Origin: Nostoc linckia FACHB-104
GTDB lineage: Bacteria > Cyanobacteriota > Cyanobacteriia > Cyanobacteriales > Nostocaceae
Direction of reading: 5' to 3'
Assembly (NCBI RefSeq): GCF_014696615.1
Contig: NZ_JACJQJ010000006.1
Coordinates: 124,001-188,000, forward strand
Length of the DNA: 64,000 bases
Position numbers and translations under genes: made by a program
The notes under the pieces: model-generated
What the model was told of the DNA's origin: nothing
The model's database searches: none
Seen by the model: only the letters and a program-made list of their open reading frames with translations
Part shown: positions 9,531 through 51,616 of the stretch, piece by piece
How the letters are laid out: every line of letters begins with the position of its first letter
Numbering within the stretch: the first letter of the stretch is position 1

Positions 9531-11008
<1,478 letters not shown>

Positions 11009-23417: not shown

Positions 23418-23469
23418 AATTAGTCAAAAGTCGAGAGTCCAGAGTCCAAAGTCCAAAATCCAAAATCAT

Positions 23470-23535
23470 AATACTTGACCTTTGACCCTTGACCCTTGAC
23501 CTTTGACCTTTGACCCTTGACCTTTGACCTTTGAC
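23470..23535 (+). repeat. TGACCTT-type heptanucleotide tandem repeat
   Basis: About eight consecutive 7-base units alternating TGACCTT and TGACCCT run up to the rdgB start codon; the last unit is TGACACA followed immediately by TG of the ATG. This is the short-tandem-repeat family of Nostocales. It replaces any visible Shine-Dalgarno sequence for rdgB. Confidence 0.9.
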
Positions 23536-23537
23536 AC

Positions 23538-24122
23538 ATGACTAAACTACTTGTAGTAGCCACAGGAAATCCAGGTAAATTGCGGGAAATGCAAGAATAC
23601 TTGGTTGAGTCTGGTTGGCAATTAACTCTAAAACCAGAAGAATTAGAAATTGAAGAGACAGGTGAGACTTTTGCTGCAAATGCTTGTCTTAAAGCTTCCC
23701 AAGTTGCCAAAGCTACGAAAAGTTGGGCAATTGCGGATGATTCTGGCTTACAAGTAGATGCATTAGATAGCGCTCCAGGGGTGTATTCTGCACGTTATGG
23801 CAAGACTGACTCAGAACGTATTGCTAGGGTATTGAACGAATTAGGTAGCGAAGTCAATCGTAAAGCGCAATTTGTGTGTGCCGTGGCGATCGCTAATCCT
23901 CATGGTGCGATCATTTTAGAATCTGAAGGGGTTTGTCATGGCACAATACTCCATGCACCTCGTGGGACTCGTGGGTTTGGCTACGATCCAATTTTTTACG
24001 TTCCAGATAAGCAATTAACCTTTGCAGAAATGACACCACAGTTAAAGAGGTCAATTAGCCATCGAGGTAAAGCTTTTGAATCTTTACTGCCTAAACTGGC
24101 AGGGTTGAATAGTAAATTTTGA
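23538..24122 (+). CDS. rdgB: XTP/dITP diphosphohydrolase (Ham1/RdgB)
   Basis: The enzyme hydrolyses non-canonical purine triphosphates (dITP, XTP, ITP) to monophosphates, keeping them out of nucleic acids. Motifs: VVATGNPGKLREMQ at the N-terminus, ETFAANACLKA, the catalytic-Asp segment WAIADDSGLQVDAL, SARYG, and RGFGYDPIFYVP plus SHRGKAF near the end. The length of 194 residues is normal. The ATG directly follows the heptamer repeat array, so the 5' untranslated region is repeat-derived and lacks a clear ribosome-binding site. Confidence 0.96.
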   Translation: MTKLLVVATGNPGKLREMQEYLVESGWQLTLKPEELEIEETGETFAANACLKASQVAKATKSWAIADDSGLQVDALDSAPGVYSARYGKTDSERIARVLNELGSEVNRKAQFVCAVAIANPHGAIILESEGVCHGTILHAPRGTRGFGYDPIFYVPDKQLTFAEMTPQLKRSISHRGKAFESLLPKLAGLNSKF

Positions 24123-25683: not shown

Positions 25684-25816
25684 TTGTCGCCTGGTATTAA
25701 AAATCGAAGTAATTCATTATGTTGTAGAGATAGTATCAGAGATAGTCAACTCTGAAACCATGCTGAAGAATAATTGAAAAATTATTGAATAGAGAAAAAA
25801 GTAGGGATTGGGGATT

Positions 25817-25844
25817 GGGTAATGGGTAATGGGTAATGGGTGAT
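25817..25844. repeat. GGGTAAT heptanucleotide tandem repeat
   Basis: Three GGGTAAT units and a GGGTGAT unit in tandem, followed by CTCCCTCATCTCCCTCATC just beyond the thiD stop codon. Same short-tandem-repeat class as elsewhere in the window. Confidence 0.9.
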
Positions 25845-25876
25845 AGGTATTTATTATTTCTCCCTCATCTCCCTCA

Positions 25877-26794: not shown

Positions 26795-26832
26795 CCCATT
26801 ACCCATTAACCATTACCCATTACCCATTACCC
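26795..26832. repeat. CCCATTA heptanucleotide tandem repeat overlapping a gene end
   Basis: About five tandem CCCATTA/ACCATTA units run into the 3' end of the minus-strand gene at 26820. On that strand the units read GGGTAATGGGTAA, so they encode the last residues (Gly-Asn-Gly) and the stop codon. Confidence 0.9.
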
Positions 26833-27236
26833 AATTTGCTTTGTAAATACTTCCCCCATTCTGCTGCTAAAGGGATTTCTGTGAAGGGAACTTTTACAGA
26901 TTTGGCTGGTTCGGGAAAGAGAAACTCTAACTCAATCTGACGACCTTTTTCTGGTGGAGATTCTAAATTAGATAATTTGTCATCGACTAAAAGATTGATT
27001 GTTTGGACATCACCTAAAGAAAAGGTTTCTAGTTTAATTGGCCCTTTAGGTGTAGGGTTTCCCCAGGTTATATTGTTACCTTTTTGACCCAATACTGCAT
27101 AGATATCATACTTTGCACGTTCAAATTGCTCGGCCCAGGTACGGTAAGCTTCAACTTTTTGATACTCTTTTGAGCCTTGCCAAGCCAACCAGAAAAACAT
27201 TGCTAACAGCGGCAACCACAATAGACCATGTTCCAT
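26820..27236 (-). CDS. Membrane-anchored protein of unknown function
   Basis: A 138-residue protein with an N-terminal membrane segment (GLLWLPLLAMFFWLAWQG), a short amphipathic helix (EYQKVEAYRTWAEQFERAKYD) and a beta-rich soluble part ending in FTEIPLAAEWGKYLQSKLGNG. It looks like a conserved cyanobacterial protein. Its last three residues and stop codon come from the adjacent heptanucleotide repeat. It is divergent from the subtilase gene at 27354, 117 bases away. Confidence 0.7.
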   Translation of the reverse strand: MEHGLLWLPLLAMFFWLAWQGSKEYQKVEAYRTWAEQFERAKYDIYAVLGQKGNNITWGNPTPKGPIKLETFSLGDVQTINLLVDDKLSNLESPPEKGRQIELEFLFPEPAKSVKVPFTEIPLAAEWGKYLQSKLGNG

Positions 27237-27353: not shown

Positions 27354-29207
27354 ATGAGAAGGCTTATATTATTTTGCTTGTTTCTCATTGGGCTGGGGGC
27401 TGCTGTATTTGGGTTCCTCAATTTTCAGGGACTAGCAGCCAAAGGTGAGTTTGAGACAATTCTGCTTGATTTTCGTGAAGATATACCCAAAGAGGTAGTA
27501 GAGAAAAACTTGCAAGCGATCGCTCAACAATATCAGGTTACACCCCAACTCGATAATAAATTTTCAGCAAAAGATAATGTGTATATTATCAGAGGCGATC
27601 GCCAACTGCTGAAAAAACTGCAAAAATCAAAATTCAAGTCGGCTACAGAATTTATCGAGCCAAATTATATTTACAACAATATTCCCCAACCGGGTGAATT
27701 TGCTTATTTGGGAGAATTTTTAAAACCCGATGAAGATGAAGAGAATGTAACTCCCTCATTAACTGGCCCCAATGACCAGTATTACAGTAAGCAGTGGAAC
27801 TTGCATAATATTGGCATTGAAGGCGCGTGGAGTCAAACCAAGGGTAGTGGCATTACGGTTGCTGTCATTGACACTGGGATCACTCGCGTGCGGGACTTAT
27901 ATGAAACGAAATTTGTCAAAGGCTACGATTTCGTTAACGATAGGGAAGAAGCCAAGGATGATAACGGTCATGGTACCCATGTTGCAGGTACTATAGCCCA
28001 AGCTACCAATAATAAATATGGTGTAGCTGGTATTGCCTACGAAGCCAATCTCATGCCATTGAAGGTATTGAATGAGTATGGTGGTGGTACAGTTGCCGAT
28101 ATTGCCGAAGCCATTAAATTTGCTGCTGATAAAGGCGCAGATGTCATTAATATGAGCTTGGGTGGTGGCGGTGAAAGCCAGTTAATGAAGCAAGCCATTG
28201 ACTATGCCCACAACAAAGGTGTTGTGATTGTGGCGGCGGCTGGTAACGAAAACGCGAATGGTGCTAGCTATCCAGCACGTTATCCCCATGTCATTGGCGT
28301 TTCGGCATATGGCCCAGATAGCGAAAAAGCCCCATATTCCAATTTTGGTGCTGGTGTTGATATTTCTGCCCCTGGTGGTAGTGATGCTGGCAAGATTCTC
28401 CAAGAAACCATCAATGAGCAAGGTGAAGGGGTTTTCCTTGGCTTCCAAGGTACAAGTATGGCATCTCCCCACGTTGCTGGTGTAGCGGCATTAATCAGAG
28501 CTAAAGGTATCACAGACCCGGATGAAGTTTTAAAAGTCCTCAAACAGTCTTCCAGAGTTATTCAAGAGGATGGTTTGAACTACTACGGTGCTGGGCTACT
28601 AAATGCTGAAGCCGCTGTTAAACTTGCCACTGAAGGTCAAATTAGCTTCTCTGATTTCTTCCGTTGGTTAAGGGATAACGGCTATCTCAACCCTGGATTT
28701 TGGATTGATGGCGGTGCTGTAGCGCTGTTACCCAAAATTTTGATGGTAGTTGGTTCTTATCTACTAGCTTGGTTTTTAAGAGTTTACTTTCCTTTCACCT
28801 GGAGTTGGTCTTTATCCAGCGGTTTAATTGCTGGCAGTTCAGGGTTATTTTTCCTCAAGGGAATTTATATCTTTGACCTTCCCCAATGGCCTTTCCGGCT
28901 TTTGGGTAGTTCCATCCCCGAATTAGGTAACAGTCTCCAAGGAACTGGTGATTTAAATCCATTGTTTGCCAGCGTATTAATTCCCATAGTTCTCGTTGCA
29001 TTACTACTGGGACATCCTAGCGGCAAATGGTTTGCCATTGGCTCTACCCTTGGTGTCGCAGCTTGTTTAACAGTCAGTGCCGTTTACGATCCTACTGTTT
29101 GGGGTTTGGGCAGTAGCTACTTAGCTCGAGTTTTCTTGATTGCTAATGCTCTACTGTGTTATGGATTAGCTCGGTTAGCGTTAAAAAACGAAAGGCAAGT
29201 AGCTTAG
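27354..29207 (+). CDS. Subtilisin-family (S8) serine protease with C-terminal membrane domain
   Basis: The 617-residue protein has a signal/anchor (LILFCLFLIGLGAAVFGFL), a propeptide-like region to about 125, and an S8 catalytic domain. The triad is visible as Asp173 (VAVIDTGIT), His206 (HGTHVAGTIA) and Ser368 (GTSMASPHVAGVAAL), with Asn at AAAGNENA for the oxyanion hole. After about 455 come several hydrophobic helices (PKILMVVGSYLLAWFL, GLIAGSSGLFFLKG, FASVLIPIVLVALLL), so it should be tethered with the protease outside the cytoplasm. The membrane C-terminus distinguishes it from secreted subtilisins. Substrates are unknown. Confidence 0.93.
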   Translation: MRRLILFCLFLIGLGAAVFGFLNFQGLAAKGEFETILLDFREDIPKEVVEKNLQAIAQQYQVTPQLDNKFSAKDNVYIIRGDRQLLKKLQKSKFKSATEFIEPNYIYNNIPQPGEFAYLGEFLKPDEDEENVTPSLTGPNDQYYSKQWNLHNIGIEGAWSQTKGSGITVAVIDTGITRVRDLYETKFVKGYDFVNDREEAKDDNGHGTHVAGTIAQATNNKYGVAGIAYEANLMPLKVLNEYGGGTVADIAEAIKFAADKGADVINMSLGGGGESQLMKQAIDYAHNKGVVIVAAAGNENANGASYPARYPHVIGVSAYGPDSEKAPYSNFGAGVDISAPGGSDAGKILQETINEQGEGVFLGFQGTSMASPHVAGVAALIRAKGITDPDEVLKVLKQSSRVIQEDGLNYYGAGLLNAEAAVKLATEGQISFSDFFRWLRDNGYLNPGFWIDGGAVALLPKILMVVGSYLLAWFLRVYFPFTWSWSLSSGLIAGSSGLFFLKGIYIFDLPQWPFRLLGSSIPELGNSLQGTGDLNPLFASVLIPIVLVALLLGHPSGKWFAIGSTLGVAACLTVSAVYDPTVWGLGSSYLARVFLIANALLCYGLARLALKNERQVA

Positions 29208-29368: not shown

Positions 29369-29602
29369 ATGAGTACTACAGTTACAGGCACTATTGAACA
29401 CCGCGACATTGGTATGGGCGCTTGGGCGCTAGTTACCGATGAAGGCATTACTTATGAACTTCCTAGAAGTGTAGATAAAAAATTATTAAAAGCAGGACAA
29501 AAAGCCAAAGTTACAGGCAAGGTGCGTGAAGATATCATGACTACTGCCATGATTGGCCCTGTCCTGGAAGTAAAATCTTTTGATGTAATTAGTTCTGATT
29601 AG
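29369..29602 (+). CDS. Small beta-rich protein of unknown function
   Basis: A 77-residue protein (MSTTVTGTIEHRDIGMG...) with alternating strands and Gly turns (GAWALVTDEGITYELP, AGQKAKVTGKV), the look of an OB-fold or small beta barrel. No signal peptide. Its stop codon overlaps the 3' end of the convergent thioredoxin-like gene by 14 bases, which supports both reading frames ending here. I do not recognise a named family. Confidence 0.72.
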   Translation: MSTTVTGTIEHRDIGMGAWALVTDEGITYELPRSVDKKLLKAGQKAKVTGKVREDIMTTAMIGPVLEVKSFDVISSD

Positions 29603-29912
29603 CTGCAGACGCTAAAACTTCTTGTAAACGGCTTCTAAATTCACCTTTGGGATGGCCTCCTTTAACCTCACCAATAATCTGGAACTCTCCTTCAGGAGAA
29701 TCGCAGAGAATGTAGGTAGGCCATCCCATTTCTGATTTATCAGGATACTGAGTTAACAAAATCTTGCGATACTTGCGATAAGTAGCTGTATCCTGCATTT
29801 TGACATCAATGAATTGCAAACCGAGTTCTTCAGCTACCTTTTGGTCATAAAATGACATTTTGTGGCAAATGCCGCATTCTTCCGAAGAGAACTTAATTAC
29901 TGCTAAATTCAT
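29589..29912 (-). CDS. Thioredoxin-like protein with CGIC motif
   Basis: A 107-residue cytosolic thioredoxin-fold protein. The redox motif is ECGICHKM at residues about 12-16 in place of WCGPC. The cis-Pro is present in MGWPTYILCD, and GGHPKGEFRSRL follows. It probably reduces or senses a disulfide; the nonstandard CGIC motif and missing Trp separate it from classical thioredoxins. The gene is convergent and overlaps its neighbour at 29369 by 14 bases. No signal peptide. Confidence 0.82.
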   Translation of the reverse strand: MNLAVIKFSSEECGICHKMSFYDQKVAEELGLQFIDVKMQDTATYRKYRKILLTQYPDKSEMGWPTYILCDSPEGEFQIIGEVKGGHPKGEFRSRLQEVLASAANQN

Positions 29913-30302
29913 TTGACTGTGCGACTATTTTGAATATAGGCAAATCATTTTAGCAGAAAATGTTGAATCTCAGTAGCATGATGGGGCAAATAGTAATAAA
30001 TACTAGCCTTGCTCAAGCTAAATTATAGAAAAATAATTAAAAATTATGCCAATTTGGCAGAGATATTGTGGAATAACAATATGTACAAGCCTAATAACCC
30101 CTAAAAAGGTAGAAATTTAGTCAGGGAAAGGCATAACGAGTATCGAAAAATAATGATAAGATAGATGTAATTAACGGTGACAGCAAGATAAGCGATCGCT
30201 AAGACACAATATCAGAAATTAAATTTCATAGCGCAGTTTTTGTGCTAGAATATATGCCTCATCAATTATCAGTGGGCAGCTAGAGGCAAATTATCTCCTC
30301 AG
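29913..30302. other. Intergenic region before the NsiR1 array
   Basis: About 390 AT-rich bases with a single HIP1 site (near 30193). It lies upstream of the thioredoxin-like gene and downstream, in the minus sense, of the last NsiR1 copy. No coding frame, hairpin or repeat unit is convincing. Confidence 0.4.
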
Positions 30303-30359
30303 AAAACCCCTAGTATGAATGAGCCTACCAGGGAAGTTAGTTATCAGGGTTCATCTACC
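30303..30359 (-). ncRNA. nsiR1: NsiR1 copy 1 (distal, degenerate)
   Basis: Box TCCGGA at 30390-30395. The conserved start reads GGTAGATGAACCC, a G to T change on the plus strand in the otherwise invariant GTGCAT. The terminator T run is only four bases. Probably weakened or inactive. Confidence 0.65.
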
Positions 30360-30434
30360 AATTTATTGTTCTTAATTAAAGCGCAATCTTCCGGAGGAAT
30401 TTTGATAAAGGAAGATTGTTGTTTTTTCAATAAT

Positions 30435-30492
30435 AAAAAACCCTAGTAGGTATAAGCCTACCAGGGGAGTTAGTTATCAGGGTGCATCTACC
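30435..30492 (-). ncRNA. nsiR1: NsiR1 copy 2
   Basis: Box TCCGGA at 30522-30527, canonical 5' motif, hairpin CCTAGTAGG/CCTACCAGG with one mismatch and a six-base T run. Confidence 0.82.
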
Positions 30493-30559
30493 ATTTAATT
30501 CTTCCAGTGCAACTACTATAATCCGGATAAATTTTTAACGTGATCGCTTGTTGAAAAAC

Positions 30560-30616
30560 AAAAACCCCTAGAGGCTTTTGCCTAAAAGGGGAGTTAGTTA
30601 TCAGGGTGCATCTACC
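30560..30616 (-). ncRNA. nsiR1: NsiR1 copy 3 (variant promoter box)
   Basis: The box is TCTAGA (30646-30651) instead of TCCGGA, still palindromic. The RNA body and hairpin (CCCCTAGAGGC/GCCTAAAAGGGG) are intact. Promoter strength is probably altered. Confidence 0.75.
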
Positions 30617-30688
30617 ATTCAACTTTTCTTGTGCAACTACCCTTGTCTAGACACTTTTTGATGGGATCGCTAATTATGGCTAAAAAAT

Positions 30689-30745
30689 AAAAAACTCCAC
30701 CGATTGTCATCAACCAGGGGAGTGAGTTATCAGGGTGCATCTACC
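30689..30745 (-). ncRNA. nsiR1: NsiR1 copy 4
   Basis: Box TCCGGA at 30775-30780. The first of four near-identical units (copies 4-7) with hairpin ACTCC/GGAGT and the same TTTTTTATTTTTTAGCC downstream. Confidence 0.83.
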
Positions 30746-30817
30746 ACTTAACTCTTCTTGTGCAACTACCCTTATCCGGACACTTTTTGACGCGATCGCT
30801 AATTATGGCTAAAAAAT

Positions 30818-30874
30818 AAAAAACTCCACCGATTGCCATCAACCAGAGGAGTGAGTTATCAGGGTGCATCTACC
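30818..30874 (-). ncRNA. nsiR1: NsiR1 copy 5
   Basis: Box TCCGGA at 30904-30909, 129 bases from the box of copy 4. Nearly identical to copies 4 and 6. Confidence 0.83.
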
Positions 30875-30946
30875 ACTTAACTCTTCTTGTGCAACTACCC
30901 TTGTCCGGACATTTTTTGACGCGATCGCTAATTATGGCTAAAAAAT

Positions 30947-31003
30947 AAAAAACTCCACCGATTGTCATCAACCAGGGGAGTAAGTTATCAGGGTGCATCT
31001 ACC
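30947..31003 (-). ncRNA. nsiR1: NsiR1 copy 6
   Basis: Box TCCGGA at 31033-31038, again 129 bases on. Canonical 5' motif and T run. Confidence 0.83.
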
Positions 31004-31075
31004 ATTTAATTCTTCTTGTGCAACTACCCTTGTCCGGACATTTTTTGACGCGATCGCTAATTATGGCTAAAAAAT

Positions 31076-31131
31076 AAAAAACTCCACCGATTTGAATAAT
31101 CAGAGGAGTGAGTTATCAGGGTGCATCTACC
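31076..31131 (-). ncRNA. nsiR1: NsiR1 copy 7
   Basis: Box TCCGGA at 31161-31166. Loop sequence differs from copies 4-6 (TTTGAATAAT region), but the ACTCC/GGAGT stem is kept. Confidence 0.82.
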
Positions 31132-31204
31132 ATTTAACTCTTCTTGTGCAGCTACCCCTATCCGGATAAATTTTTAACTTTATAGGTGGCTATTACGTAA
31201 ACAC

Positions 31205-31262
31205 AAAAAACCCCCAGTGGTGGCAGCCAACTAGGGGAGTGGATTATCAGGGTGCATCTACC
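31205..31262 (-). ncRNA. nsiR1: NsiR1 copy 8
   Basis: Box TCCGGA at 31292-31297. Hairpin CCCCCAGTGG/CCAACTAGGGG with mismatches. The motif reads GATAATCC instead of GATAACT. Confidence 0.8.
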
Positions 31263-31332
31263 ACTTAACTCTTCTTGTGCAGCTACCCTTATCCGGATAA
31301 ATTTCTCATATAAGTGTATTAGTGTTTACAAC

Positions 31333-31393
31333 AAAAAAATCCCCTAGTGGGTACCAACCAGCTAGGGGAGTCAGTTATCAGGGTGCATCTACC
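31333..31393 (-). ncRNA. nsiR1: NsiR1 copy 9
   Basis: Box TCCGGA at 31424-31429. Hairpin CCCCTAG/CTAGGGG plus inner pairs GTGGGTACC region; seven-base T run. Confidence 0.83.
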
Positions 31394-31463
31394 ATTTAAT
31401 TGTTCTAGAAGAAATAAGTAAGCTCCGGATGAAATTGTCACAATAGTGGCTGTCGATTTTTTC

Positions 31464-31523
31464 AAAAAAAAACCCAGTAGGTATAAGCCTACTAGGAGAG
31501 TTAGTTATCAGGGTGCATCTACT
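31464..31523 (-). ncRNA. nsiR1: NsiR1 copy 10
   Basis: Box TCCGGA at 31554-31559, 130 bases from the box of copy 9 with an almost identical promoter region. The first bases read AGTAGATGC (one change). Nine-base T run. Confidence 0.82.
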
Positions 31524-31594
31524 ATTTAATGGTTCTAGAAGAAATAAGTAAGCTCCGGATGAAATTATCACAAATAATGGCTATCTATTTTTTC

Positions 31595-31655
31595 AAAAAA
31601 ACCCCCCAGTAAGTGTTAGCCTACCAGGGGAGTTAGTTATCAGGGTGCATCTACC
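31595..31655 (-). ncRNA. nsiR1: NsiR1 copy 11
   Basis: Box TCCGGA at 31686-31691. Body nearly identical to copy 12 (shared CCAGTAAGTGTTAGCC hairpin side), but the promoter flanks differ. Confidence 0.83.
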
Positions 31656-31734
31656 ATTTAATTGTTCTCTAGATAACAAGTCTCATCCGGATAAAATTCA
31701 CTATGTATTAACTTTATTGTGATTTGCCAAGGCG

Positions 31735-31794
31735 AAAAAAACCCCCAGTAAGTGTTAGCCTACCAGGGGAGTTAGTTATCAGGGTGCATCTACC
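31735..31794 (-). ncRNA. nsiR1: NsiR1 copy 12
   Basis: Box TCCGGA at 31825-31830. Canonical 5' motif; hairpin and T run as in copy 11. Confidence 0.83.
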
Positions 31795-31864
31795 ACTTCA
31801 TTGTTCTTAGGCGAACTGTCAACCTCCGGATAAATTTACTAAAATGTGTATTTTAGTTGTGTGT

Positions 31865-31951
31865 CAAAACCAACCTAGAGGATGGTAGCCAACGAACCAC
31901 AGAAAAGTGGTTTGATTTACCACCTTCTCCAGTTAAGAATGTTTGTGTCGG
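31865..31951 (-). repeat. Decayed NsiR1 unit between copies 12 and 13
   Basis: The stretch keeps TTTACCACCTT (for CTACCACTT), GTTAAGAATG and TGTCGGA (for TCCGGA, about 31945), but has lost the GTGCAT core and the terminator hairpin. It explains the larger spacing of about 240 bases between the boxes of copies 12 and 13. Confidence 0.55.
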
Positions 31952-31972
31952 AATAAGTTGATTCACCAACAT

Positions 31973-32033
31973 AAAAAAATCCCCTAATAGGCATTCGCCT
32001 ATTAGGGGAGTCGAAGATCAAGGTGCATCTACC
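31973..32033 (-). ncRNA. nsiR1: NsiR1 copy 13 (proximal to hetF)
   Basis: Box TCCGGA at 32064-32069. Perfect 11-bp hairpin CCCCTAATAGG/CCTATTAGGGG with a seven-base T run. The motif reads GGTAGATGCACCTTGATCTTC, so the part after GCACC has diverged. Closest to hetF; any hetF transcript starting upstream would overlap it in antisense. Confidence 0.8.
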
Positions 32034-32325
32034 AATAAACTGTTCTACCCAGATGTCAACTAATCCGGATAAAGTTGTAAAAGCCTAAGGGACTGCCAAC
32101 TTAAAAATATCCTATCGCCGTCTTAGCAGGTGATTGGGGAGAAAAAGACAAAGATGATCTGAGTAAATTGGATAATTTGTTTTCTAGAAGTCCCTAAAAA
32201 AAGCAAAATAACGAGCATTCAGAAACATTCAGTGGGAAGATGCATCTAAGGTATCAGAAGAAGCGAAAAATCGACTTGAAACTTTCGCGTTTCAAACCTG
32301 ATTTAGGAGGCGAAGAGGAGAAGTT

Positions 32326-34815
32326 GTGACCCAGGAATTTCACATTTCCGTAACCCCAGTAGGGCAAAATGACTACTTGGTGCGGACGGAACAAGTCGCG
32401 CCTGGGGTGCCATTAGCAGAAGAATTGGTGACTTGGCCTGTAGCTGATTGGTTAGCCGCTGCTGGGCATTTGATGAACGATCCGTTGATGTCAGTGTTGC
32501 AAGGAGATGCGATCGCCTTTGGCGGACGTGAAAGCGACATTGCCAGAAACTCAGTCAATTTAGTAGCGTTGGGTCAGCAACTATATAATGCACTGTTTCA
32601 AGGCACTCTCAGAGATAGTTGGATTACAGCACAAGGTATCGCCCAAAATCACCAGCAGGTGTTGCGTCTACGTCTGGGGTTAAAAGATACTAGGTTAGCG
32701 CGGCTACCGTGGGAAGTCATGCACGCAGGCGATCGCCCTCTCGCCACCGGGCCCTATGTCGCTTTTTCTCGTTACCAAAGTGGAATTCTGCCAGCATCTC
32801 GGTTGCCATCAAAAAACATACCTCAACCCTTAGAAGAAGCTGGTATCAAAGTATTAATGGTGATTGCTTCACCTACAGATCAAGTCCGGTTGGATTTGCT
32901 CAAACATGAGGCTATTAAATTACAAGCTGAACTGCACCGTCATATACCACGCCCTGCAGAAGGTAGTAATTATCTGCCTGAGATTGAACTTACCTTACTG
33001 GACCAACCAGGGCGAGAAGAATTAACGCAAGCCCTAGAACAAGGGCGATATCATGTTCTACACTACTCCGGTCATAGCAACCTGGGAGCTAACGGTGGTG
33101 AAATTTATTTAGTTAGTAGCAGAACTGGCTTGACGGAAACCTTAAGTGGTGACGATCTCGCAGGTTTGCTCGTCAATAATAATATCCAAATGGCAGTATT
33201 TAACTCCTGTTTGGGAGCATACAGCGCTAACAGCGATACTGCTGAAGAAACCGGAGAACGTAATCTCACAGAAAGCCTAGTTAAACGCGGAATTAGAAGC
33301 GTCTTAGCAATGTCAGAACGTATTCCTGATGAAGTAGCGCTGACTTTGACACAATTGTTTTACCGCAACCTCAATCAAGGATATCCTGTAGATTTGTGCG
33401 TGAGTCGGGTACGCCAAGGGCTAATATCTGCCTACGGTTCTCACCACATGTACTGGGCGTTACCAATTTTATATCTCCAGCCAGAATTTGATGGTTTTCT
33501 CAGCCCAGAAATTCCTGAGAGTGCAGAAGCACTCAATGAGTATAATCCAGCTTTAAGGGCAAATCCTGCAGCAATGTACTCTGATGTTGCAGATGAAACT
33601 GATATGTCTTTAATGGAGGATATGATCCCTTCGGGTTTAGCCCGTGACTCTTCAGGGCTAGACTGGCTTGGTGAAGATACTTGGGGCGATCTAGTTGATG
33701 AAATAGAGTACGATGATGACCCAAGCTACGCAGAAGATTCTGCGCTAGTTTCAGATTTGTTTCGCCAACTAGATACCCAGAAAGGAACTTCTGAGCAATC
33801 ATCTTCCATGACGGCAGAACTTGTACCGCAGTTGAATGACAATAGCCTGCGGGGAAGACAATTTTCTCAAGAATTGACTGCGTCAGATCAAGAAGCTAGC
33901 TTTTGGGAAGAAGAACCGGAAACATCAAATGAATCATCTACGAGTTTTGATGGTAATTGGAATAATAATTCTTATGGACGCTCACAACCATATTCTCCAA
34001 AACGCCGCCAGCGTCGGCATATTTGGCCGATTGTAGGAATGGTAGGAGCAAGCGCGATCGCAGTTTTTGTGGGTGTCAATTGGTGGCAAAATCATCAAGC
34101 TACAAAATTACCTCCCATACCACCAATTCCTACCCAGTCAATCACAGCCCAACCTCCTGTAGATTTAAAGACGGCTGCAACTGGAATTGTGACTGCTACC
34201 GCTACGGAAAAATTGAGCCAAGGCGACTTACAAGCAGGGCTAGAGGCTGTAGAAGAATTACTTAACCGTGGCGCGCTTCCTCCCGCGCAAGCAGCGTTAA
34301 ATCTTGTACCAGCAAAGCAAGCTGATAATCCATCTGTAAACTTTTTCAAAGGAAGATTAGCTTGGCAGTCTGTGCAGTTAAAAGATAAAAAATATAGTAT
34401 TGATGATGCCCGCCGTTATTGGGAAAGTGCTGTAAAAGCAGACCCAGATTCGTTTGTATATAATAATGCCTTGGGATTTGCTTATTACGCCGAAGAAAAC
34501 TTAAATCGAGCTAATGATTCTTGGTTTAAGGCTTTAAATTTAGCTCTCAAACAACAAACAACTACTAAAAATGCCGCGCCTAAAGATGCTTTGACTTCTT
34601 ATGCTGGATTGGCTCTAGGACTTTATAAATCTGCATATAATCAACCAAATGATAAACAGTATCAATATATGAATGAAGCGCTGAAACTGCGCCAAATGGT
34701 GATTAAGGATGATCCGATAAATTTCCAGGTAAATAAATTAAGCCAAAATTGGTTGTGGACAGAAAAGGCTATTGCTGATTGGCGATCGCTACTGCAAGAA
34801 AAAGCCCAAAAATAA
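32326..34815 (+). CDS. hetF: HetF, CHAT-domain (caspase-like) heterocyst differentiation protease
   Basis: HetF is required for heterocyst differentiation and normal cell size in Nostoc; the CHAT domain is named after it (caspase, HetF associated with TPRs). Here the CHAT domain covers about 100-390, with the predicted catalytic His250 in HYSGHSN and Cys295 in NSCLGAYS. An acidic linker (about 400-560) leads to one transmembrane helix (IWPIVGMVGASAIAVFVGV, about 566-586) and then TPR-like repeats to the C-terminus. The start is GTG at 32326 behind GGAGGCGAAGAGGAGAAG. The NsiR1 array upstream and its divergent orientation support the gene name. The activity is thought to limit HetR accumulation, acting with PatU3; nothing here shows the substrate. 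Confidence 0.93.
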   Translation: MTQEFHISVTPVGQNDYLVRTEQVAPGVPLAEELVTWPVADWLAAAGHLMNDPLMSVLQGDAIAFGGRESDIARNSVNLVALGQQLYNALFQGTLRDSWITAQGIAQNHQQVLRLRLGLKDTRLARLPWEVMHAGDRPLATGPYVAFSRYQSGILPASRLPSKNIPQPLEEAGIKVLMVIASPTDQVRLDLLKHEAIKLQAELHRHIPRPAEGSNYLPEIELTLLDQPGREELTQALEQGRYHVLHYSGHSNLGANGGEIYLVSSRTGLTETLSGDDLAGLLVNNNIQMAVFNSCLGAYSANSDTAEETGERNLTESLVKRGIRSVLAMSERIPDEVALTLTQLFYRNLNQGYPVDLCVSRVRQGLISAYGSHHMYWALPILYLQPEFDGFLSPEIPESAEALNEYNPALRANPAAMYSDVADETDMSLMEDMIPSGLARDSSGLDWLGEDTWGDLVDEIEYDDDPSYAEDSALVSDLFRQLDTQKGTSEQSSSMTAELVPQLNDNSLRGRQFSQELTASDQEASFWEEEPETSNESSTSFDGNWNNNSYGRSQPYSPKRRQRRHIWPIVGMVGASAIAVFVGVNWWQNHQATKLPPIPPIPTQSITAQPPVDLKTAATGIVTATATEKLSQGDLQAGLEAVEELLNRGALPPAQAALNLVPAKQADNPSVNFFKGRLAWQSVQLKDKKYSIDDARRYWESAVKADPDSFVYNNALGFAYYAEENLNRANDSWFKALNLALKQQTTTKNAAPKDALTSYAGLALGLYKSAYNQPNDKQYQYMNEALKLRQMVIKDDPINFQVNKLSQNWLWTEKAIADWRSLLQEKAQK

Positions 34816-38703: not shown

Positions 38704-38731
38704 TTGACTCTTGACTCTTGACTCTTGACTC
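38704..38731. repeat. TGACTCT heptanucleotide tandem repeat
   Basis: Four tandem units close to the stop codon of the HAD gene. Same repeat class as elsewhere. Confidence 0.9.
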
Positions 38732-51454: not shown

Positions 51455-51540
51455 ATAATTACTAATTTGAAATTTGTGATTGTTAGCCATCCTCATGATG
51501 CAGGTAGTAGTTATACCAATTCAAAATTCAAAATTCAAAA

Positions 51541-51616
51541 TTAAGAATCTAAACAACACAAGACTTTGAGTCTGTGTATGTGTTGCATTCTTTTTTCAAA
51601 TTTGTATTAATAAGCC
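51541..51616 (+). repeat. Interspersed repeat, copy C
   Basis: TTAAGAATCTAAACA, ACACAAGACTTTG and TGTGTTGCATTCTTTTTT match copies A and B. It is preceded by ATACCAATTCAAAATTC (51512-51540), which also flanks copy B. Confidence 0.6.

Follow-up and report, generated by a model that had tools for sequence, protein, structure and literature searches.

A thirteen-unit NsiR1 array upstream of hetF in Nostoc linckia FACHB-104, with a second NsiR1 copy conserved between cobM and lgt

The stretch of DNA analyzed here, referred to as the window, comprises 64 kb of the Nostoc linckia FACHB-104 genome (contig NZ_JACJQJ010000006.1, positions 124,001 to 188,000) and carries, upstream of hetF, 13 tandem copies of the small RNA (sRNA) NsiR1. 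We consider it highly probable (about 0.88) that these copies form the NsiR1 array of a cyanobacterium with heterocysts, and that its units are expressed from their own DIF1 promoters, switched by HetR and HetZ, and silence hetF translation by amplifying the dosage of the RNA. In such a model, each unit would be transcribed singly from its DIF1 (TCCGGA) promoter and stop at its own hairpin terminator, yielding 13 sRNAs of about 60 nucleotides (nt) with a common, near-unchanging 5' pairing stretch, UGGUAGAUGCACCCUGAU, and differing terminators. HetR, acting via HetZ, would activate all units in concert in developing heterocysts. Unit 1, next to hetF, would be antisense over its full length to the predicted leader of hetF; units 2-13 would pair with the same place in the leader through their common 5' end and stem; and other targets would perhaps be hit at the start codon, like alr3234 in PCC 7120. 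From the units, boxes, hairpins, orientation, pairing potential, and conservation found, we infer expression, start sites, HetR/HetZ dependence, and silencing in this strain, the genome of which contains hetR.

A covariance-model search of the window revealed 13 matches to NsiR1 (RF02399), all on the minus strand between positions 30299 and 32034, with scores of 45.0-74.4 bits versus the Rfam gathering cut-off of 39 (cf. Table 1). From box through terminator, the array spans 30299-32069. This agrees with the initial annotation, made from the sequence alone, which had described 13 NsiR1 units (30303-32069) on the minus strand that are read away from hetF; the latter is indeed a plus-strand open reading frame (ORF), and the identity of the array as NsiR1 upstream of hetF is also in line with the literature (PMC9045159; here and below, published work is cited from the accessible sections of the papers). 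The same annotation had placed a TCCGGA box 30-36 bases upstream of a constant 5' sequence in each unit. The distance was right, as about 35 nt lie between the start of the box and GGTAGATG, and the gap between box and unit is 28-29 nt in all 13 cases, but the exact hexamer is present in 12 units only, unit 11 having TCTAGA. The window contains 15 TCCGGA sites, 12 of them inside the array. Similarly, the 5' sequence GGTAGATGCACC is found 11 times on the minus strand of the window, every time in the array, and never on its plus strand, but the two remaining units differ (AGTAGATGCACC and GGTAGATGAACC). The hairpin terminator claimed for each unit was verified, since each of the 13 units folds, at -13.0 to -26.3 kcal/mol, into a hairpin followed by a T-rich stretch. 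A consensus terminator scan alone found 11 sites versus 2.0 expected from shuffles, 10 of the 11 on the minus strand; eight of these 10 are unit hairpins and two are not, so the scan misses five of the 13 units. The 5' ends of neighboring units lie 124-139 nt apart, except for units 1 and 2 (239 nt). The TCTAGA box of unit 11 is a natural variant of the putative promoter and predicts a silent or deregulated unit. Between the box and the -10 region, units 6-12 (30507-31286) contain GTAGCTGCAC or GTAGTTGCAC, which resemble the RNA's own 5' end and are perhaps a trace of earlier recombination.

Table 1. Coordinates of the NsiR1 units, hetF, and neighboring features (positions refer to the window).
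Feature	Position	Strand	Evidence and remarks
NsiR1 unit 1 (NsiR1.1 type, CACCTTGATCTTC)	31973..32034	-	Rfam 61.4 bits; hairpin; box TCCGGA 32064-32069
NsiR1 unit 2	31734..31795	-	73.9 bits; hairpin; box TCCGGA 31825-31830
NsiR1 unit 3	31595..31656	-	74.4 bits; hairpin; box TCCGGA 31686-31691
NsiR1 unit 4 (5' end TAGTAGATG)	31465..31524	-	59.8 bits; hairpin; box TCCGGA 31554-31559
NsiR1 unit 5	31333..31394	-	67.6 bits; hairpin; box TCCGGA 31424-31429
NsiR1 unit 6	31203..31263	-	66.2 bits; hairpin; box TCCGGA 31292-31297
NsiR1 unit 7	31076..31132	-	45.5 bits; hairpin; box TCCGGA 31161-31166
NsiR1 unit 8	30947..31004	-	46.3 bits; hairpin; box TCCGGA 31033-31038
NsiR1 unit 9	30818..30875	-	46.2 bits; hairpin; box TCCGGA 30904-30909
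NsiR1 unit 10	30689..30746	-	45.0 bits; hairpin; box TCCGGA 30775-30780
NsiR1 unit 11	30557..30617	-	51.3 bits; hairpin; altered box TCTAGA 30646-30651
NsiR1 unit 12	30432..30493	-	67.4 bits; hairpin; box TCCGGA 30522-30527
NsiR1 unit 13 (GGTAGATGAACC)	30299..30360	-	52.6 bits; hairpin; box TCCGGA 30390-30395
hetF	32326..34815	+	GTG start after AGAGGAGAAGTT; PF12770 (CHAT domain) E 3.4e-28; NF045509 CellDiv_HetF 1505.5 bits, cut-off 1200
Interval between units 1 and 2	31796..31972		Enlarged (239 nt spacing); putative hetF promoter site
Small gene with CGICHK motif (thioredoxin-like by eye)	29589..29912	-	ORF; far side of the array
Subtilase gene	27354..29207	+	PF00082; beyond the CGICHK-motif gene, reads toward hetF

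The array is real and of a known, ordinary kind, one more NsiR1 array. In PCC 7120, 12 NsiR1 copies of about 60 nt are located upstream of hetF in the same orientation as here, each expressed from its own DIF1 promoter in a HetR-dependent manner; NsiR1.1, the copy beside hetF, has diverged from the rest and inhibits hetF translation by a post-transcriptional mechanism, while NsiR1.4, which stands for seven identical central copies, represses alr3234, a hetP-like commitment brake (PMC9045159). A diverged first unit and near-identical central copies are found in both strains, but here there are 13 copies and one TCTAGA box, and only units 8-10 are strongly alike. Tandem NsiR1 repeats upstream of hetF, 12 in number, were also reported for Nodularia spumigena CCY9414 (PMC3610870). 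The DIF1 motif is TCCGGA at -35 and requires a suitable -10 region (PMC6133370); as in hetR, patS, patX, and the predicted patX-hetR promoter of Leptolyngbya BL0902, it is situated here about 35 nt before the start (PMC6133370, PMC7377430, PMC11298460), but, unlike in the hetR, patS, and patX cases, it fronts a repeated sRNA and is kept on NsiR1 units outside the heterocystous family. By analogy with the published work, the dosage role and the independent firing of units suggested by the initial annotation would fit.

The array and hetF are divergent, the 5' end of unit 1 being 292 nt upstream of the GTG start of hetF. In PCC 7120, the hetF start site was mapped to -256, beyond nsiR1.1, so that nsiR1.1 is inside the hetF leader (PMC8406250). 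If hetF starts beyond unit 1 in N. linckia too, unit 1 would be a perfect complement of the predicted leader, and the enlarged first interval would hold the hetF promoter, the position of which we infer by analogy only. The energy of pairing to the complement of unit 1 within the predicted leader amounted to -120 kcal/mol for unit 1, -50 to -78 kcal/mol for units 2-13, and -46 kcal/mol for a solo NsiR1 copy located elsewhere in the genome (see below), though mRNA structure is not considered in these energies, which in part necessarily follow from the common ancestry of the units. Besides this limit, several points weigh against the proposed model (G000 denotes the genome of N. linckia FACHB-104, and other G numbers denote compared genomes): the hetF start in this strain is a prediction by analogy; no sigma-70-like plus-strand site was detected within 31850-32340; the altered box of unit 11 leaves DIF1 promoters in strictly 12 of the 13 units; the arrays of G026 and G136 are not beside hetF, and hence the antisense arrangement can be dispensed with in some genomes; and unit 1 of G103 and of G020 is not the one most similar to unit 1 of other genomes.

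In the comparison of first intervals, hetF was located in 12 of 16 loci (G108, G116, G102, and G060, missed by motif or region, were left out), and the interval measured 215-295 nt in eight of the 10 loci with at least two usable units (124 nt in G103 and 144 nt in G020). By eye, a decayed NsiR1 unit is present in the first interval of G128, G147, and G031. We considered a 14th unit in the window and rejected it, because the 239-nt interval gives no Rfam match; by eye, it resembles a decayed unit, though less clearly than do the intervals of these three genomes. Matches to hetF were found in all 12 genomes compared, in two of them in two pieces; in G136, an interruption of the gene leaves two ORFs of 666 and 134 amino acids.

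The 5' stretch of NsiR1 is near-invariant, and the terminators differ, in 37 aligned units from 15 genomes and 11 families; the alignment uses 23 of 30 outgroup loci (L254, L267, L269, L272, L278, L279, and L280 were left out), and these loci were picked by the Rfam model, which itself favors this stretch. We analyzed its pairing with the HetP family (28 loci in 12 genomes), whose types were assigned here by protein motifs and not by comparison with PCC 7120 proteins. The start-codon region paired with the NsiR1 5' end above shuffles (p<0.05, uncorrected) in six of six alr3234-like genes (PQRTYSR type) and five of six PIDYIPYRTYIR-type paralogues, versus none of 12 hetP-like genes and none of four others. 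Going by these pairings, the near-invariant stretch acts like a target-recognition stretch. G000 has a single HetP-family gene, which is hetP-like, and comparison of its pairing with shuffles did not reveal the published alr3234-type start-codon site; unlike in PCC 7120, no HetP-family gene with an NsiR1 site was thus found in this genome. With the alr3234-like protein of G108 as a query, a full match was obtained in G108 only, and the other seven genomes of the genus gave single matches of 41-46%, corresponding to the hetP-like gene in G000, G003, and G133. The fact that the 5' end is intact in a genome without the alr3234-type site implies that other targets, perhaps hetF, must keep it.

The same observations could mean that in this lineage the array mainly serves other, non-hetF targets in trans and that its pairing with hetF is a by-product of location, an explanation that we regard as possible but rather unlikely. 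In its favor, the stretch is kept in G000 although the only HetP-family gene there has no site and, like six of the other seven genomes of the genus, this genome gives only a 41-46% match to the alr3234-like query; furthermore, NsiR1 persists where it is unlinked from hetF, the solo copy has the same stretch, and the PIDYIPYRTYIR-type paralogues of other genomes contain possible sites. However, NsiR1.1 has been reported to repress hetF in PCC 7120 (PMC9045159), the unit next to hetF is the one conserved between genomes (see below), and the pairing analysis, which covered the hetF leader and the start codons of the HetP family, identified no target besides hetF.

A comparison of 143 units from 18 loci in 15 genomes (restricted to units that match the box at four or more of its six bases) indicated that the hetF-side unit, or, where the array is displaced, its NsiR1.1-type unit, best matches unit 1 of another genome in 13 of 15 loci, G103 and G020 being the exceptions. 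The middle units are closest to their own-genome neighbors in most longer arrays (e.g. G103, G128, G147, G026 array A, G060, and G116). In G000, such own-genome matches are limited to units 8-10, while units 1, 2, 3, 5, and 7 and the same units of G003 are mutual best matches. The box is exact in 113 of the 143 units; TCCTGA is found in 10 of 12 units of G128, and TCCGGT in 10 of 11 units of G026 array A. Judged by sequence similarity, the hetF-side unit is orthologous between genomes and the middle units are often homogenized; together with the joint spread of box variants, this is the picture left by unequal crossing-over in arrays whose first unit is conserved. In three of the 12 genomes, the array is split: G033 has five units beside hetF and seven near the CGICHK-motif gene and the subtilase gene, whereas in G026 and G136 (genus g26) the NsiR1.1-type units adjoin an unrelated long ORF, the others are near the CGICHK-motif gene, and hetF is at a separate site with no NsiR1 match beside it.

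Unequal crossing-over in a tandem repeat might by itself account for the copy number, which would then be neutral and have no dosage function. We find this improbable, even though homogenized middle units, the splitting of arrays, the range of 2-30 NsiR1 matches per genome (all loci of 145 genomes at E <= 0.001, with no more than 34 candidates scored), and the lack of any array unit over the cut-off in G013 and G069 are in its favor. Each of the 12 compared genomes keeps at least three array units over the cut-off, and, apart from the exact boxes that prevail, the other box variants mostly spread together. The highest count belongs to G022, where most of the 30 matches are in one array (C57:31640-35174) and an extra cluster below the cut-off is on contig C55.

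The proposal of the initial annotation that the array is a cis insulator, i.e. a transcription-interference block shielding hetF from upstream reading, is very improbable and was rejected: 13 hairpin units do separate hetF from the upstream genes, of which the subtilase gene reads toward hetF, and NsiR1 and hetF are divergent neighbors in five of 11 examined genomes of other families too, but plasmid-borne PhetF-gfp fusions in PCC 7120 displayed no noticeable difference in nitrate and behaved similarly in heterocysts whether they carried the entire array or nsiR1.1 alone (PMC8406250), G026 and G136 have their arrays at sites unlinked from hetF, the T runs on the minus strand would halt transcription heading away from hetF and not toward it, and a purely cis role leaves the near-invariant 5' end of the RNA unexplained. 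Altering or deleting the -10 box of nsiR1.1 also changed the green fluorescent protein signal little (PMC8406250). These fusions test cis effects only, because the chromosomal array was still present in the cells.

With this array, a known system gains one more strain. What would matter more is the wider pattern, which comprises a second conserved locus and an apparent HetR-DIF1-NsiR1 link that predates heterocysts. G000 contains a fourteenth NsiR1 copy of 52 nt on another contig (C149:118782-118833) with its own TCCGGA box. As judged from flanking ORFs, a single copy of 51-52 nt is present between cobM (divergent) and lgt (convergent) in all 12 genomes compared, and both genes were confirmed in G000 by NCBIfam (TIGR01465 and TIGR00544). 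In each of these 12 genomes, 29-30 nt separate the end of the TCCGGA box from GGTAG. An exact search with the 25-base 5' sequence of the solo copy retrieved at least 116 stretches in named records; among the 80 stretches listed, cobM is the neighbor in 76 (the remaining four are truncated where the locus ends), lgt in 68 (seven are truncated and five lack lgt), and the exact box is present in 79, the identity of the 25 bases being given by construction and the neighbors and box being independent of it. One solo copy was found in each of 13 genomes of genus g39. Outside the heterocystous family, the cobM-lgt copy occurs in five of 14 genomes (G153, G340, G189, G165, and G154), among 30 loci. 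G013 and G069, which belong to the heterocystous family and have hetR and nifH, keep the solo-length copy. Within the accessible sections of the NsiR1 literature searched, this copy is not mentioned, nor is it in connection with prolipoprotein. Its identity with the Northern-verified 51-nt sRNA 4547237r of PCC 7120 was considered. The latter is encoded about 320 nt from NsiR8 and has homologues in 12 of 27 heterocystous genomes versus 12 of 12 and 13 of 13 for the solo copy, so that the two are probably different RNAs. If the assignment is true, the cobM-lgt copy represents a second NsiR1-type sRNA gene and, being single in each of the 12 and 13 genomes above, it is one that can be deleted cleanly, unlike the array.

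The distribution of NsiR1 was surveyed in 388 genomes of the order under stricter filters, with 13 candidates scored per genome; matches over the cut-off were assigned to genomes by E <= 1e-5, which reproduces the total obtained from the search itself. Since Escherichia coli also gives matches at E <= 0.001, those that reach this level but stay under the Rfam cut-off carry no weight as evidence here. NsiR1 was found over the cut-off in 256 genomes and hetR in 236. The window's family is presumably the heterocystous one, and the other families presumably form no heterocysts. Among the 317 genomes outside it, 163 of the 165 with hetR have NsiR1 over the cut-off and two have weaker matches, while of the 152 without hetR 22 have NsiR1 over the cut-off, 22 have weaker matches, and 108 have none; by family, NsiR1 is present in 18 of 18 with hetR versus 3 of 15 without, all these counts ignoring phylogeny, so that common descent may explain part of the match. 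Some of the 22 hetR-less carriers are incomplete assemblies. Families f32 (10 genomes) and f18 (6 genomes), e.g. L255 and G222, have NsiR1 over the cut-off without a hetR match and look like real exceptions. No nifH match was obtained in 111 of the 163 genomes with hetR and NsiR1, but as proof of a lack of heterocysts this is weak, since nifH likewise gives no match (E <= 1e-80) in 20 of the 71 genomes in the heterocystous family.

Outside the family, 41 units in 18 loci of 11 genomes have the exact 5' stretch, and 38 of them are preceded by TCCGGA or TCCTGA; the weak Rfam cluster on C18 of G171 (L309) has no unit with this stretch. NsiR1, as one or two units, is upstream of and divergent from hetF in five of these 11 outgroup genomes (G189, G165, G214, G171, and G312), and in three of the five (G189, G214, and G171) a subtilase gene follows beyond it, i.e. 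the order subtilase-NsiR1-hetF recurs in other families. In the other six, no hetF was found in the stretch examined around NsiR1. Outgroup tandem arrays comprise 10 units in G184 and eight in G396, both beside a subtilase gene, and six in G209. Close NsiR1 copies with the same box are thus present in filamentous relatives that probably lack heterocysts.

We therefore consider it reasonably likely, with less confidence than for the array itself, that NsiR1 is an ancestral output of a filamentous HetR/HetZ-DIF1 circuit that predates heterocysts, with two ancestral loci (hetF and cobM-lgt), both DIF1-boxed and sharing the pairing stretch, and that the hetF copy was amplified in heterocyst formers and separately elsewhere. 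This interpretation is weakened by the fact that in the outgroup hetF linkage was found in only five of 11 genomes and the cobM-lgt copy in only five of 14. The presence of NsiR1 without heterocysts is not wholly new, as Limnospira indica PCC 8005, said to form no heterocysts, has a published 57-nt NsiR1-like RNA, RNA162, which the accessible sections of PMC8400943 treat as one RNA without mentioning a link to hetF or cobM-lgt. Neither the hetR/NsiR1 match nor the two conserved loci were found in the literature searched. Nearly all filamentous cyanobacteria are reported to carry hetR and patX, the function of which without heterocysts is described as a mystery (PMC11298460); the 163/165 match makes the question of the role of hetR in such organisms testable, and NsiR1, if the interpretation is true, would be a simple readout of HetR action in filaments without heterocysts.

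As for the surroundings of the array, the CGICHK-motif gene gave no match in Pfam or NCBIfam, and a gene of this type is also found near the split arrays of G026, G136, and G033. Elsewhere in the window, a thiamine pyrophosphate (TPP) riboswitch over the Rfam cut-off was detected at 9532-9628 on the plus strand, and short 7-base tandem repeats are present at 23422-23542, 25802-25849, 26795-26833, 38704-38731, and 51518-51542.

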